Source: Sphingobium sp. SYK-6 (GTDB taxonomy: Bacteria; Pseudomonadota; Alphaproteobacteria; Sphingomonadales; Sphingomonadaceae). Taken from it: a stretch of 64,000 nt of DNA. Shown here piece by piece: positions 4,564 to 64,000 of the stretch. The stretch's first letter is position 1, and each line of letters opens with the position of its first letter. Position numbers and translations under genes: made by a program. The stretch covers positions 3,566,501-3,630,500 of the forward strand of contig NC_015976.1 of assembly GCF_000283515.1 (NCBI RefSeq), written 5' to 3'. Under the pieces are notes generated by a model. The model was not told where the DNA came from, made no database searches, and worked only from the letters and a program-made list of their open reading frames with translations.

Positions 4564-6897
4564 ATGCCCTCTTTCGCCCCCGCCCTTGAAACCACGCTCC
4601 ACAATGCGCTGGCCCATGCCACGGAGCGAAGCCATGAATATGCGACGCTGGAGCATCTGCTCCTCGCGCTGATCGATGACGAGCATGCCGCCAAGGTGAT
4701 GCAGGCATGCGGCGTCGATCTGGGCGAACTCGGCGACACCGTGACGCATTATCTCGACAGCGAGCTGGACAGCCTGAAGGTGACCGGCAGCGTCGATCCC
4801 TCGCCCACCAGCGGCTTTCAGCGCGTCGTCCAGCGCGCCATCCTGCATGTCCAGTCGTCCGGCAAGGAAGAAGTGACCGGCGCCAACGTGCTGGTGGCGC
4901 TCTTCTCCGAGCGGGAAAGCTATGCGGTCTATTTTCTGCAGCAGCAGGACATGAGCCGCCTGGATGCCGTCAGCTATCTCTCGCACGGCGTCGGCAAGGG
5001 CGCTGCCACGCAGGAGCCGCCCAAGCCGCCTCAGGCCGAGGAAGAGAAGAAGGGCGAGACCAAGAAGAAGGACGGCGCGCTCGACCAGTTCACCGTCAAC
5101 CTCAACGAGAAGGCGAAGGACGGCAAGGTCGACCCGCTCATCGGCCGCAGTGCCGAGGTCGATCGCACGATCCAGATCCTCTGCCGCCGCTCGAAGAACA
5201 ATCCGCTCTATGTGGGCGATCCCGGTGTGGGCAAGACCGCCATCGCGGAAGGCCTCGCGCGCAAGATCGTGCAGGGCGAAGTGCCCGACGTCCTCAAGGA
5301 AGCGGTGATCTACTCGCTCGACATGGGCTCGCTGCTGGCCGGCACGCGCTATCGCGGCGATTTCGAGGAGCGTTTGAAGGCCGTCGTCTCGGAGCTCGAG
5401 AAGATGCCGCACGCGGTGCTCTTCATCGACGAGATCCACACGGTGATCGGCGCGGGCGCGACCTCCGGCGGCGCTATGGATGCGTCCAACCTCCTGAAGC
5501 CGGCGCTCTCGGGAGGCTCGATCCGCTGCATCGGGTCGACCACCTACAAGGAGTTCCGTAACCACTTCGAGAAGGACCGCGCGCTGCTGCGGCGGTTCCA
5601 GAAGATCGACGTGAACGAGCCAACGGTCGAGGATACCATCAAGATCCTGATGGGCCTGCGCTCGGCTTTCGAGGACCATCACGCCGTCAAGTACACGCCC
5701 GACGCGATCAAGGCGGCCGTGGAGCTCTCCGCGCGCTACATCAATGACCGCAAGCTGCCGGACAAGGCGATCGACGTGATCGACGAGGTCGGCGCGATGC
5801 AGATGCTGGTGGCGCCGTCCAAGCGCAAGAAGATGATCACGCCCAAGGAGATCGAGGCCGTGATCGCGACCATGGCGCGCATCCCGCCCAAGACCGTCTC
5901 GACGGACGACAAGAGCGTGCTGGAATCGCTGGAAACCGATCTCAAGCGCGTCGTCTTCGGGCAGGACAAGGCGATCGGGGTGCTCAGCTCCGCGATCAAG
6001 CTGTCCCGCGCGGGCCTGCGCGATCCGGACAAGCCGATCGGCAATTATCTGTTCTCCGGCCCCACCGGGGTCGGCAAGACGGAAGTTGCCCGGCAGCTGG
6101 CCACGCTGCTCGGCATCCCGCTCCAGCGCTTCGACATGTCGGAATATATGGAGCGGCACTCGGTCAGCCGCCTGATCGGCGCGCCTCCGGGCTATGTCGG
6201 CTATGATCAGGGTGGCCTGCTCACCGATGCGATCGACCAGAATCCGCACTGCGTCCTCCTGCTCGACGAGATCGAGAAGGCGCATCCGGACCTGTTCAAC
6301 ATCCTGCTGCAGGTGATGGACAATGGTCGCCTGACCGATCACCACGGCAAGACGGTCGATTTCCGCAACGTCATCCTCATCATGACCACCAATGCCGGCG
6401 CGTCCGACATGGCGAAGGAATCGATCGGCTTCGGCGAGTCCACGCGCGAGGACGTGCAGGAAGAAGCCGTGAAGAAGCTCTTCACGCCGGAATTCCGCAA
6501 CCGTCTCGATGCGATCGTGCCGTTCGACTATCTGCCGACCGAGGTGGTCTCCCGGGTGGTCGACAAGTTCGTCATTCAGCTCGAGCTGCAGCTGGCGGAC
6601 CGCGACGTTCACATCACGCTCGACAATGATGCGCGCGAATGGCTCACCGCGCGCGGCTATGACAAGCTCTATGGTGCCCGCCCGATGGGCCGGCTCATTC
6701 AGGAGAAGATCAAGCAGCCGCTCGCCGAGGAGCTTCTGTTCGGCAAGCTGGTCAATGGCGGCGAAGTGCATGTGCGCCTGAAGGATGGTGCTCTTACATT
6801 CGAGATCACGCCCGCGGCGCCCCGGCGCGGCAAGAGTGGTCCCGCCGGCAAGGCCAGCGGCAAGGGCCGCAAGGCGCCGGCGCCGACCTCACGCTGA
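4564..6897 (+). CDS. clpA: ATP-dependent Clp protease ATP-binding subunit ClpA
   Basis: A 777-residue AAA+ unfoldase that feeds substrates into ClpP. It has a Clp-N double-repeat domain (about 1-150), then a Lys/Glu-rich linker. The first AAA module has Walker A GDPGVGKT near residue 218 and Walker B VLFIDEIHTV. The second has GPTGVGKT near 499, pore loop GYVGYDQGG and VLLLDEIEKAHP. ESIGFGES is the ClpP-docking IGF/IGL loop, which marks ClpA rather than ClpB. The ATG at 4564 follows AGGAG; the 12 codons before it do not look like ClpA. No clpS is adjacent. The Lys-, Ala- and Pro-rich C-terminal tail is longer than usual. Confidence 0.97.
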   Translation: MPSFAPALETTLHNALAHATERSHEYATLEHLLLALIDDEHAAKVMQACGVDLGELGDTVTHYLDSELDSLKVTGSVDPSPTSGFQRVVQRAILHVQSSGKEEVTGANVLVALFSERESYAVYFLQQQDMSRLDAVSYLSHGVGKGAATQEPPKPPQAEEEKKGETKKKDGALDQFTVNLNEKAKDGKVDPLIGRSAEVDRTIQILCRRSKNNPLYVGDPGVGKTAIAEGLARKIVQGEVPDVLKEAVIYSLDMGSLLAGTRYRGDFEERLKAVVSELEKMPHAVLFIDEIHTVIGAGATSGGAMDASNLLKPALSGGSIRCIGSTTYKEFRNHFEKDRALLRRFQKIDVNEPTVEDTIKILMGLRSAFEDHHAVKYTPDAIKAAVELSARYINDRKLPDKAIDVIDEVGAMQMLVAPSKRKKMITPKEIEAVIATMARIPPKTVSTDDKSVLESLETDLKRVVFGQDKAIGVLSSAIKLSRAGLRDPDKPIGNYLFSGPTGVGKTEVARQLATLLGIPLQRFDMSEYMERHSVSRLIGAPPGYVGYDQGGLLTDAIDQNPHCVLLLDEIEKAHPDLFNILLQVMDNGRLTDHHGKTVDFRNVILIMTTNAGASDMAKESIGFGESTREDVQEEAVKKLFTPEFRNRLDAIVPFDYLPTEVVSRVVDKFVIQLELQLADRDVHITLDNDAREWLTARGYDKLYGARPMGRLIQEKIKQPLAEELLFGKLVNGGEVHVRLKDGALTFEITPAAPRRGKSGPAGKASGKGRKAPAPTSR

Positions 6898-58827: not shown

Positions 58828-59388
58828 GTGAGCTTTCTGGAGATCCTTGCTGTCGGTCTGGGACTGACGAACATCATCCTCATCGTCCGTCGCAGCCTGT
58901 GGAATTATCCGGCGGGCATCGCGATGGTGACGCTGTATTTCTTCATCTTCGCGCAGGCCCGGCTGTATAGCGACGCGCTGTTGCAGATCTTCTTCCTCGT
59001 GCTGAATGCCTATGGCTGGGTGAACTGGCGGCGGGCGCAATCCGGCGGGGACGTGCCGGTCCGCTGGCTGGGCGGGCGGGGGCTGGCCGTCTGGGGCGCC
59101 ATTGCCCTGGCCGCGAGCCTGCTCTGGGGCCTGCTCATGCATCGCCAGACGGACGCGGCGTTCCCTTACTGGGACGCTGCCGTGGCGATGCTGAGCGTGA
59201 CCGCGCAATTGCTGATGGCCCGGCGCTATATCGACAACTGGGCCTTCTGGATCCTCGTCGATTGCCTTGCCATCCCGCTTTACTGGATGCGCGGGCTGCA
59301 TCTGACGGCCGGGCTTTACGTGGTCTTCCTCGCGCTCTCGATCGCGGGGCTGATCGCCTGGACGCGGGCGCGGAGAGCGGCGGCATGA
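58828..59388 (+). CDS. pnuC: Nicotinamide riboside transporter, PnuC family
   Basis: A 186-residue membrane protein with six hydrophobic segments. LWNYPAGIAMVTLYFFIFAQ, YSDALLQIFFLVLNAYGWVN and WWxx-type NWAFWILVDCLAIPLYWMRG are PnuC motifs, with aromatic and Asn residues that bind the nicotinamide moiety. The start is GTG with AAGGG upstream. The stop overlaps the next ATG (ATGA), so import and phosphorylation of the substrate are coupled. Confidence 0.92.
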   Translation: MSFLEILAVGLGLTNIILIVRRSLWNYPAGIAMVTLYFFIFAQARLYSDALLQIFFLVLNAYGWVNWRRAQSGGDVPVRWLGGRGLAVWGAIALAASLLWGLLMHRQTDAAFPYWDAAVAMLSVTAQLLMARRYIDNWAFWILVDCLAIPLYWMRGLHLTAGLYVVFLALSIAGLIAWTRARRAAA

Positions 59389-59912
59389 GCGTGCCGAGCG
59401 TGGTCCTGCACGGGCCGGAAAGCACGGGCAAGTCGACGCTGGCGCAGCGGCTCGCGGCGCATTGGGGCACGGTGGACGTCCCCGAATATGGCCGCACTTA
59501 TTGCGAGGCGCATGGCACCGACCTGACGCCGGAGGACCTGATCGCGATCATGGACGGGCATGTCGCGGCGCGCCGGGCGATCGAGCCGCGCGCGCGGGGG
59601 CTGCTGATCCAGGATACCGACCCGGTGATGACGGCGGCCTGGAGCATGATGCTGTTCGGCCACCGCATCGCGGCGCTGGACGCCTTTACGGAGGTGGGCG
59701 CGCTCTATCTGCTCATGGACATCGACTTGCCGTGGATAGGCGATGAGGTGCGCATGTTCCCGGATGCGGCGGACCAGCGGCGCTTCTACGCGCTCTGCGA
59801 GGCGGAACTGGTGCGGCGGGCGCTGCCTTATGTGCGGATCTCCGGCGATGGCGAGCAACGCTTCGCGCGGGCGGTGGCGGCGGTGGACGCGGCGGGGCTG
59901 GTGGCGCGCTGA
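59385..59912 (+). CDS. NadR-like nicotinamide riboside kinase (AAA ATPase)
   Basis: A 175-residue P-loop kinase: VVLHGPESTGKSTLAQRLAA at the N-terminus (Walker A), VDVPEYGRTYCEAHGTDLTP, GLLIQDTDPVMTAAWSMMLF and YLLMDIDLPWIGDEVRMFPD. These are the motifs of the kinase domain of NadR, without its helix-turn-helix or adenylyltransferase parts. It likely phosphorylates nicotinamide riboside imported by PnuC to make NMN for NAD. Translationally coupled to pnuC. Confidence 0.88.
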   Translation: MSVPSVVLHGPESTGKSTLAQRLAAHWGTVDVPEYGRTYCEAHGTDLTPEDLIAIMDGHVAARRAIEPRARGLLIQDTDPVMTAAWSMMLFGHRIAALDAFTEVGALYLLMDIDLPWIGDEVRMFPDAADQRRFYALCEAELVRRALPYVRISGDGEQRFARAVAAVDAAGLVAR

Positions 59913-61943: not shown

Positions 61944-62219
61944 GGGGGTTGGGGGGGCTGGGGGGATAGGGCGAGGCATGATCGCCGTTGGTGGACTGGG
62001 CCGCGTGGATAGATGTGATCGGCGGAAATTCACGCTCTCGGGACTGGAGCTATTCCGCAAATGGGACAAACCCCCTCGTTCTCGACACACAAAGTGCTGT
62101 GCGGGAAAGCCCCAGACCGGGGCGCCGATATCTACCATGAAAAGCCCTCTGTAAGGAATGCAGGGCTTCCGCTACACTTGGCCGCCAACTTGATAACGAT
62201 GAAATGATTCCGAGGGACT
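61942..62219 (+). other. Gap with a G-rich run, boundary between host-like and lower-GC sequence
   Basis: Right after the SpdH-like stop, GGGGG, GGGGGGG, GGGGGG and GGG follow one another within 30 bases (61943-61971), a potential G-quadruplex. From about 62020 onward the sequence becomes visibly richer in A and T. No gene, tRNA or clear attachment repeat is visible up to 62219. GAGGGA near 62212 is the ribosome site of the TIR-NTPase. Confidence 0.6.
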
Positions 62220-64000
62220 ATGCTGCCGACTGTGTTTCTGTCGCTTTCTGGCGTCGATGTAAATTTTGTCGGCAACGTCGAGCGCAACATACCGCCCGGA
62301 ATGGCATATTTTTATCCGAAGAGCTTTGAAAACGGCGAGAACCTCATCTCGGCGATGGAGGAGCGGGTGGCGGAGAGCCGCATATTCGTACTTTTCGCAT
62401 CTCGCGCGTCAGTCGACTCCGTTTGGGTTCAATTTGAGATCGAGCGCGCGCGTCTCAACAAAATTCAGAATCCAGGCTTCAGATATTTTGTCTTCCCGGT
62501 GGAGCCCGGCGTGGAACGTGCCAGGCTCCCGGCTTGGATGCGCGAGGCGTGGGTTCCTTCGGCTGGCCACACCGCCAAAGATATCGCCCGTTATCTACGT
62601 GGTGTGCTGGCGAGCATGGCGGAACTTAGCGGGACGATCCTGCCTCCCCTCGGACGCGGCGGCCTCATCGACAAGGCACGCCGTGAGTATCAGAATGCCA
62701 CGTTCATCAACAAGGTCGCCCCAGGCTTGTTCCTATTCACCGGCCACGCCGGGATTGGCCGCCGAACGGTCAAACGCCTCCTCATTCCGACGCTCTTCCC
62801 GACACAGCCTGAGATGAACTACGGGCCGGAGTTTGAACTTCCGCCCCATGCAGACCTGGGCGACATCTACCGCGCCGTTCGACAGGAGTTGGAAGACCAC
62901 TTCTCGATCAAGAAATTCGAAAGTGCCTTGGCCGCCTTCAATGATGCGTCGATCGACGAGCAGGTCGAAGAAATTCTCCAGTCGATGTGCCACTTCGCTG
63001 ACCTTGGTCAGACGGTGACAATCGTCATTGGCCTCGGTTTATACGAGGATCGCGGTGAACTTAAGCCCTGGGCCGCTGCGCTGTTGAGCGCTGCCGCGAG
63101 GTATGACCAGCTAAAGCTATGCCTGATTTCGGCGCGTAAGTTGAAATTCAAGGACCTGCGGCCGCTGCAGAATGTCCAGCAGGTTGACGTGGAGCAACTC
63201 GAGGCCCCCGACATTCGGACTCTAATCTTGGAGACGATTCCAATCTTCGGGGGAACGCCCGCGTTGCCGAACGATACGGTGATCCAGTCAATCGGCGGGC
63301 ATCCTACCATAGCGCGTACGGTCGCCCGCCTCATTGCCCATGGTGGCCCGGTCGTCGTTGACAGCGACCCGAAGCAACTCCATGATATTCAAGAAGAGAT
63401 TCTATCAGAAAGCCTCAGCTTTGATCGTCTGAAACCGATCGAGCGTGATATCCTCTCGATTTTGAGCTGGGTTCCCCAGCTTAATGGACGGATGATGGCC
63501 AACATCATCCAAGGCCATCACGGCATCGAGCAAGAGGGAATGGTCGAGACGATCGAATTTCTGATTGCCGGGTGCCTCATGCAAATCAGCGGTGCCAACT
63601 ACCTTATCTCCGCGCCTGTTCGCGGGATGTTTCGTCGGAAGCATGGCTACGGGAGCACCGAACTTCGCACGATCTTCGCGCGCTTTCTGAAGGCAGAATG
63701 GGAGGCCGCCGTCAAAAATGACGAACTGAGAGCAGAATTGTTCGACGCCTTTGTCTACATGACTGCGCTGGAGGGGGGGACGCTTCCAAAGGAGTTCAAG
63801 GGTCTTCTCCTGCCCTCTACCCTGCAAGACCTCGTGCGTGACGCTTATGATCGACGCCATGTCGACGACCACGCTCTGGATCGCGTCGTGGCGTGGGGAA
63901 TGCCCGCGATCGACATGAAAATGGATGAGAACACCCGAGAGGAGATTCTGTCGTACCTGTTGCGTGCTCTAGTCCGCCTTGGCTCTCCCGATGCCAGGCG
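62220..64000 (+). CDS. TIR-domain STAND-like NTPase, 5' part (cut by right edge); probable anti-phage defence
   Basis: A frame from ATG at 62220 stays open for 593 codons to the window end. Residues 1-135 form a TIR domain: TVFLSLSGVDVNFVGNVERN, SFENGENLISAMEERVAESR, and WVQFEIE with Glu73 at the place of the NADase catalytic glutamate. Residues 165-290 look like a P-loop NTPase: LFTGHAGIGRRTVKRLLIP (175-183; GIGRRT in place of GKT), then TVTIVIGLGLYED. Later DRLKPIERDILSILSWVPQL resembles the winged-helix end of a STAND module. The codon use (ATA, TTA, CTA, AGA) and lower GC differ from the neighbours. GAGGGA lies before the ATG. Confidence 0.82.
   Translation, partial: MLPTVFLSLSGVDVNFVGNVERNIPPGMAYFYPKSFENGENLISAMEERVAESRIFVLFASRASVDSVWVQFEIERARLNKIQNPGFRYFVFPVEPGVERARLPAWMREAWVPSAGHTAKDIARYLRGVLASMAELSGTILPPLGRGGLIDKARREYQNATFINKVAPGLFLFTGHAGIGRRTVKRLLIPTLFPTQPEMNYGPEFELPPHADLGDIYRAVRQELEDHFSIKKFESALAAFNDASIDEQVEEILQSMCHFADLGQTVTIVIGLGLYEDRGELKPWAAALLSAAARYDQLKLCLISARKLKFKDLRPLQNVQQVDVEQLEAPDIRTLILETIPIFGGTPALPNDTVIQSIGGHPTIARTVARLIAHGGPVVVDSDPKQLHDIQEEILSESLSFDRLKPIERDILSILSWVPQLNGRMMANIIQGHHGIEQEGMVETIEFLIAGCLMQISGANYLISAPVRGMFRRKHGYGSTELRTIFARFLKAEWEAAVKNDELRAELFDAFVYMTALEGGTLPKEFKGLLLPSTLQDLVRDAYDRRHVDDHALDRVVAWGMPAIDMKMDENTREEILSYLLRALVRLGSPDAR

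Follow-up and report, generated by a model that had tools for sequence, protein, structure and literature searches.

The question raised by this locus is whether the open reading frame at the right end of the window, the stretch of 64,000 nucleotides analysed here, encodes an anti-phage TIR-STAND protein, and how such a protein might work with arginine at the P-loop lysine position. The frame (62220-63998) stayed open up to the window edge. Read whole within the 4.2 Mb contig, the gene encodes 856 amino acids (L002:2220-4790; window coordinate = L002 position + 60000). The order of parts in the complete protein was a TIR domain, a STAND/NB-ARC-like NTPase, a winged-helix-like part and helical repeats. 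As the initial annotation had expected, the sensor part lies beyond the window edge, where the frame runs on. A search of the gene's own genome at E ≤ 0.001 returned no match besides the gene itself. The features are listed in Table 1.

Table 1. Features of the TIR-STAND-repeat gene and its surroundings, in window positions
Feature	Position	Strand	Remark
Strain-specific segment	62066..64000 (to 64875 in genome terms)	.	PARIS-like pair instead in same-species genome G706
Upstream leader travelling with the gene	62107..62219	+	DNA homology with L072, L078 and L074
TIR-STAND-repeat gene, residues 1-593 of 856	62220..64000	+	Stop at G000:C1:3631290 (L002:4790), 790 bases past the window edge
TIR domain, about residues 1-136	62220..62627	+	Pfam TIR_2 above cut-off; strands and helices alternate in the model
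Glu73	62436..62438	+	Glu in 34/34 readable family members
STAND / NB-ARC-like NTPase, about residues 140-400	62637..63419	+	Strand-loop-helix in the model; Foldseek matches RPP1, CED-4, Dark, Apaf-1, 6mfv
P-loop GHAGIGRRT, residues 175-183	62742..62768	+	Arg181 stands for the Walker A Lys, Arg182 for the Ser/Thr
Walker B region VTIVIGLG, residues 266-273, without Asp	63015..63038	+	Asp in 21/34; absent from the whole 10-protein clade
GHP, residues 360-362	63297..63305	+	Pro in 34/34 by column count; in L017 the adjoining residues are gaps
Winged-helix-like segment (putative), about residues 404-475	63429..63644	+	Modelled as helices with two short strands
Start of helical-repeat (TPR-type) C-terminal part, about residues 505-846	63732..64000	+	Paired helices in the L072 model

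Pfam TIR_2 matched residues 5-94 of the window protein with 35.4 bits (cut-off 28), which bears out the TIR domain claimed for the N-terminus. The glutamate of WVQFE is residue 73, as had been read, and is conserved throughout the readable family proteins. We take it to be the TIR NADase glutamate, a role assigned by analogy. The TIR domain starts with FLSLS in the window clade, as opposed to FLSHSSxDK.

The AlphaFold2 model of the 593 window residues, built with 16 relatives, had a mean pLDDT of 86.8 and a pTM of 0.82. Strands and helices alternate in it in a TIR-like manner as far as about residue 136; then come a P-loop strand-loop-helix (170-174, 175-180, 181-192), a STAND/NB-ARC-like body to about residue 400, a putative winged-helix-like unit at 404-475 and paired helices. 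The top Foldseek match of this model was RPP1, a plant TIR-NLR (E 2e-10; rmsd 9.9; TM-scores of 0.40 by query and 0.45 by target). Further resistosomes ranked below it, as did Dark, CED-4, Apaf-1 and 6mfv, a STAND-TPR protein. For the Sphingomonas protein L072 (93% identical), modelled at full length, mean pLDDT was 83.2 and the paired helices ran on to residue 846; this second model matched human SAMD9 first and RPP1 second, at TM-scores of 0.2-0.3. PDB entry 9m0n was absent from the top-50 Foldseek lists of both models. A TIR fold within the first 140 residues and a P-loop fold at 165-290, both anticipated from the letters, appear in the predicted models with distant matches. The modelling indicates that the central STAND NTPase fold is present in the window protein, at a TM-score of about 0.4 to its distant matches. 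Pfam TPR models at E ≤ 0.1 were found in up to 10/15 relatives, and none at that threshold in the window protein. One SUKH-4 match in the repeat region (residues 624-669) was weak, at E 0.018 and below the Pfam cut-off, and is probably due to chance.

The TIR-NLR family, whose action against phages is known from Rousset et al., includes the window protein as a divergent member. BLASTP aligned residues 6-603 with an E. coli protein (1e-14, 20% identity), phmmer homology reached beyond the TIR domain (2.7e-8, residues 6-346), and identity to the E. coli protein across the alignment was 16%. The PADLOC TIR-NLR model (PDLC03015) matched the window protein in the TIR domain only (residues 6-112, E 5.7e-6) and the 46% identical relative L011 at residues 14-187 only. 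We read this partial match as a detection limit, since other proteins of the same tree match the model over its full length. All 15/15 members of alignment A2 matched it at E ≤ 0.1, the best being a Photobacterium protein (9.4e-277). The best solved relative was PDB 9m0n/9umd, 824 aa (A2 profile, E 7.9e-211). Sequence, fold and family all support the TIR-STAND defence protein proposed at the outset.

The tblastn and profile searches found relatives on 16 distinct viral contigs, not counting L129, which had a TIR match only. Plasmids of several genera carry others: Komagataeibacter (46%, full length), Acetobacter, Enterococcus, Zymomonas, Phocaeicola and Photobacterium. Relatives in genomes were those of Sphingomonas sp. 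IC081 (93%), an alphaproteobacterial MAG (92%), Novosphingobium organovorum (88%) and a Rhodospirillales MAG (50%). Across the class, the single protein at E ≤ 0.001 found matches in 5/385 genomes, counting its own, and in one of the five the match was to the repeat region only; within the genus, the gene was absent from 60/60 other genomes searched. The PADLOC family search of the class at E 1e-20 gave 2/289 and missed the window's own gene. Full-length A1 profile searches returned mostly TIR-only or TPR-only matches and were left out of the family counts. Phage records contained no match to the window protein or to L071, and one viral scan (A7) contained no relative. A frame of 540 aa on viral contig L118 lacks TIR and P-loop there and is probably a broken copy.

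DNA of the Photobacterium gene had partial matches in 26/5426 E. coli genomes, covering 16% of the query at 68.5% among the matches listed. One E. coli protein matched the 9m0n chain over residues 1-824 with 1781 bits and is near-identical to it. The E. coli TIR-NLR gene lies between a fragment of phage polarity suppression (psu) and a tyrosine integrase, by a tRNA-Leu, which corresponds to the psu-integrase position in the P4 hotspot. In another E. coli strain psu is intact at the site and the TIR-NLR is in two frames; in E. coli CS5L (L133:3001-5476), the P4-site TIR-NLR is annotated as two overlapping frames, a TIR part and a TPR part. We infer that the E. coli gene found here is the gene cloned by Rousset et al. 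That work (Rousset et al. 2022, PMC9122126) reports phage protection by a single-gene TIR-STAND-TPR system of the P4 hotspot, with P2-like phages among those affected, and suggests for it ATP- or GTP-dependent oligomerisation after sensing and NAD+ degradation.

The Walker A sequence had been read correctly, with arginine at the lysine position. The canonical Walker A pattern GxxxxGK[ST] was not matched by the window protein, nor was its VTIVIG segment a canonical Walker B (hhhhD). The features first noted in the window protein (TIR, Glu73, arginine P-loop, missing acidic Walker B) are real. The GHP triplet is presumably the GxP motif of STAND proteins.

Among the collected loci, 44 ORFs matched the NTPase profile (E ≤ 1e-5). 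Dropping duplicates that were exact over the last 500 residues left 35 non-redundant ORFs, which were aligned with MAFFT; with L118 excluded, 34 readable proteins were counted. These are a similarity-collected set, found with a profile built from family members and not a random sample, and the placement of three divergent ones (L017, L019 and L113) is weak. Arg stood at the Walker A lysine position in 34/34. The next residue was Arg in 21, Lys in 7, Thr in 2, Ser in 2, Gly in 1 and Gln in 1; the third residue, counted from the lysine position, was Thr in 20, Ser in 11, Lys in 2 and Arg in 1. An upstream Gly-Arg pair was also conserved (Gly145 in 32/34, Arg146 in 34/34). The P-loop of the E. 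coli family protein, GLIGVGRRS, has Arg likewise. The arginine P-loop is therefore not peculiar to the window gene. L017 (L091:3505-6036; G603, another genus) is a divergent TIR-STAND protein with GYNGVGRQT directly downstream of lepA, and L019 is a divergent TIR-STAND protein similar to it.

The 13 proteins without the Walker B Asp were the 10 proteins of the window clade and the divergent L113, L017 and L019. The missing acidic Walker B noted at first thus holds for the window clade and does not extend to the family. The 10 proteins formed one group with support 100/100 (unrooted tree with long branches and uneven composition flagged), so a single Walker B loss suffices for all of them. The Walker A arginine is thus common to all branches seen, with the Walker B loss as a further step in the window clade. 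The initial annotation had also suggested a little-described subfamily, which holds in part. The family as such is known (PADLOC TIR-NLR, Rousset 2022, PDB 9m0n), but the window clade is divergent and the arginine P-loop runs throughout the collected members. In a limited search, the accessible parts of the literature contained no description of an arginine P-loop in bacterial TIR-NLRs.

The intact 856-aa frame was found in four copies: the window, L072, L073 and L074. The dN/dS values (Nei-Gojobori, own script) against L072 and L074 were 0.072 and 0.080 overall, 0.045 and 0.069 in the TIR domain, 0.071 and 0.079 in the NTPase, and 0.081 and 0.083 in residues 401-856. Against L073 the value was 0.043, with synonymous sites near saturation. 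Selection is strongly purifying, the NTPase included. The window frame is not a chance frame, because it combines 88% DNA identity at such low dN/dS to two other copies with a confident model.

The DNA shared with L072, L074 and L078 comprised the gene, about 113 bases upstream and about 45 bases downstream, at 87-88% identity; it starts at 62107 (L072, L078) or 62110 (L074) and ends at 64835/64829. The DNA shared with L073 was the coding region and six bases. The gene moves alone with its leader. The L072 copy is carried by a prophage, in which PHROGs identified genes for both terminase subunits (small and large), a head protein, a scaffold, a portal, a DNA methyltransferase and an integrase. 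We take their order to be P2-like, and viral contig L078 has the same phage genes. The L073 copy (88%) is near an integrase, and the L074 copy lies between genes that by reading have no obvious phage nature. Family copies are also found on six plasmids (L011-L014, L070 and L071). On the Komagataeibacter plasmid (L011:5770-16689), the 46% relative is annotated among MazF, IS elements, a UvrD-like helicase and a PD-(D/E)XK nuclease gene.

A mobile element with defined ends was considered and rejected: L002 positions 2031-2120 and 4801-4900 shared no match of 8-14 bases in either direct or inverted orientation, and the homology with L073 is confined to the coding region and six bases. The leader was likewise rejected as a folded RNA (z -1.44; 20/200 shuffles fold as well), and a promoter and terminator scan of it gave chance-level results. 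It contains a seven-base inverted repeat (AAGCCCT, 62142-62148; AGGGCTT, 62162-62168), at which L072 has GCCTC / GAGGC, and this repeat could be an operator.

The initial annotation placed the gene at the edge of a probable defence island and expected any partners to the right of the window. Neither expectation held. To the right of the gene are a csgG-like gene, lepA, threonine synthase and recF, housekeeping genes fill the 16 kb around and beyond, and no defence cluster appeared among the 10 neighbours scanned. Compared with PADLOC at E 1e-10, nine of them had no match, and RecF (TIGR00611) cross-matched the mad3 and AriA models. A tRNA scan of L003 and L004 found none.

Genome G706 of the same species shares the flanks, at 94.9% up to 62065 and 98.1% from 64876. 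At the same site it carries two other genes (L088:5081-7467), which match the PARIS pair: AriA at E 1.5e-24, over part of the models, and AriB at E 1.9e-20. No NCBIfam model was above cut-off for either. G028 has neither the TIR gene nor the PARIS-like pair, and its NadR-like and csgG-like genes adjoin. The window gene thus stands alone as a defence gene in a swap site, where the defence system differs from genome to genome within the species. The claim does not extend to the csgG/lepA point as a hotspot of the whole genus, for which 20 more genomes were mapped for ten reference proteins only.

PnuC (E 1.7e-55) and a NadR-like gene (Pfam AAA_28; NadR by reading) were found at 58828-59912. These NAD-salvage genes were rejected as partners, because three other genomes of the genus (G706, G028 and G808) have relatives of them but no TIR gene. 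Despite lying close to the predicted NADase, they are part of the usual gene surroundings.

Taken together, the window gene is probably a stand-alone anti-phage NLR of the TIR-NLR family, with NAD+ degradation by the TIR domain, a lysine-free P-loop core and a one-gene cargo form. The C-terminal repeats would sense a phage cue, the STAND core would then oligomerise, and the gathered TIR domains would degrade NAD+, whereby the infected cell would stop or die before phage release. We infer the trigger, the oligomerisation, the NAD depletion and the loss of ATP hydrolysis. The role in phage defence is proposed by analogy with published work on the family, in which it was shown for a member elsewhere. 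The motifs suggest that the STAND core of the window clade most likely serves as a nucleotide switch, weak or without hydrolysis, or as a scaffold, because the P-loop lacks Lys across the family members found and the window clade lacks the Walker B acid. Several results count against the reading as a whole: the low identity to the E. coli protein, a PADLOC match confined to the TIR domain, the distant structural matches, the altered TIR start of the clade and the absence of TPR matches at E ≤ 0.1 from the window protein.

A rival reading is an ordinary ATP-switch NLR, in which Arg181 replaces Lys and ADP to ATP exchange still activates the protein; we regard it as a serious possibility without favouring it. 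Arginine would keep the positive charge, the Gly-rich loop and the predicted strand-loop-helix are kept, as is the Gly-Arg pair, and 21/34 relatives retain the Walker B Asp. Yet Lys occurs in 0/34, and the next residue is Arg or Lys in 28/34, where the canonical motif has a Mg-binding Ser/Thr. The arginine makes canonical ATP hydrolysis doubtful, and the window clade has lost the Walker B Asp as well. Fourteen further TIR ORFs of at least 500 aa were found in the collected loci. Nine of these were more copies of family members; the five outside the family carry [GA]xxxxGK[ST] in 4/5 cases, L063 having neither form. Immunity by PaAvs5, a STAND defence protein, depends on its Walker A lysine (PMC12931631). 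A tightly bound nucleotide without turnover is possible, since Arg could still hold phosphate, and 9m0n may contain a bound nucleotide. We tentatively consider a further reading, in which the STAND core of the whole family works without the canonical P-loop Lys, with its nucleotide permanently bound or none, and ligand-driven assembly alone activates the TIR domain; the window clade would be the extreme case, a P-loop-independent NLR.

That the TIR domain makes a cyclic ADP-ribose type signal for a separate effector, as in Thoeris, and does not deplete NAD seems unlikely. The TIR domain does match ThsB models weakly (Pfam 0.026, below the cut-off; PADLOC 0.0011), but no partner travels along: the shared DNA stops shortly before and after the gene, and neighbours vary between copies. 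A regulator of a host process, for instance NAD homeostasis, might be suggested by the nearby PnuC and NadR-like genes. We think this very improbable, as the relatives of these genes are found without the TIR gene, the gene was not found in the 60 other genomes of the genus searched and its close copies are on mobile elements. The non-canonical Walker A and B could also be signs of a decayed gene with a rotted P-loop. This is hardly credible: decay is strongly contradicted by the dN/dS result (0.07-0.08 in the NTPase), and the intact frame in four copies and the arginine shared by all 34 proteins also speak against it.

The preferred reading of a lysine-free TIR-NLR matters for how these proteins are switched. 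Arginine at the catalytic lysine position in all readable members, and in a near-identical relative of the structurally solved 9m0n/9umd, offers a direct test of whether an NLR can work without a nucleotide switch. If true, the P-loop-independent reading contradicts the ATP/GTP-dependent oligomerisation that PMC9122126 suggests. The locus is also an example of a single chromosomal position whose defence system differs between genomes of one species.

Among known systems, PARIS (AriA-AriB) has the site alone in common with the TIR gene; its proteins and mechanism are unrelated. Thoeris differs in that no ThsA effector adjoins the window gene and the conserved unit is a single gene. The plant TIR-NLRs RPP1, Roq1 and WRR4A likewise join TIR and NB-ARC and are among the best solved folds (E 2e-10 to 4e-6), but at 12-15% identity and TM-scores of 0.35-0.41 over the query. 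They have a canonical P-loop lysine and an LRR sensor. The Avs proteins recognise phage terminase or portal. Avs / AVAST systems resemble the window protein in having a STAND switch and a C-terminal repeat sensor, and the N-terminal effector of Avs5 is also of NADase type, namely Sir2, whereas the window protein has a TIR effector and Arg in place of the Lys needed in the GPAGSGKT of Avs5 (PMC12931631). Closest is the TIR-NLR of E. coli P4-like satellites (PMC9122126; PDLC03015; 9m0n/9umd), which shares the TIR-STAND-repeat order, the single gene, the mobile-element cargo, the TIR Glu, the GxxxxGRR[TS] P-loop and the GxP motif. It differs in its 16-20% identity, and the window clade in its missing Walker B Asp and FLSLS start; the window protein has no full-length match to PDLC03015. 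The kind of system is already known, and the window clade is a divergent variant of it.
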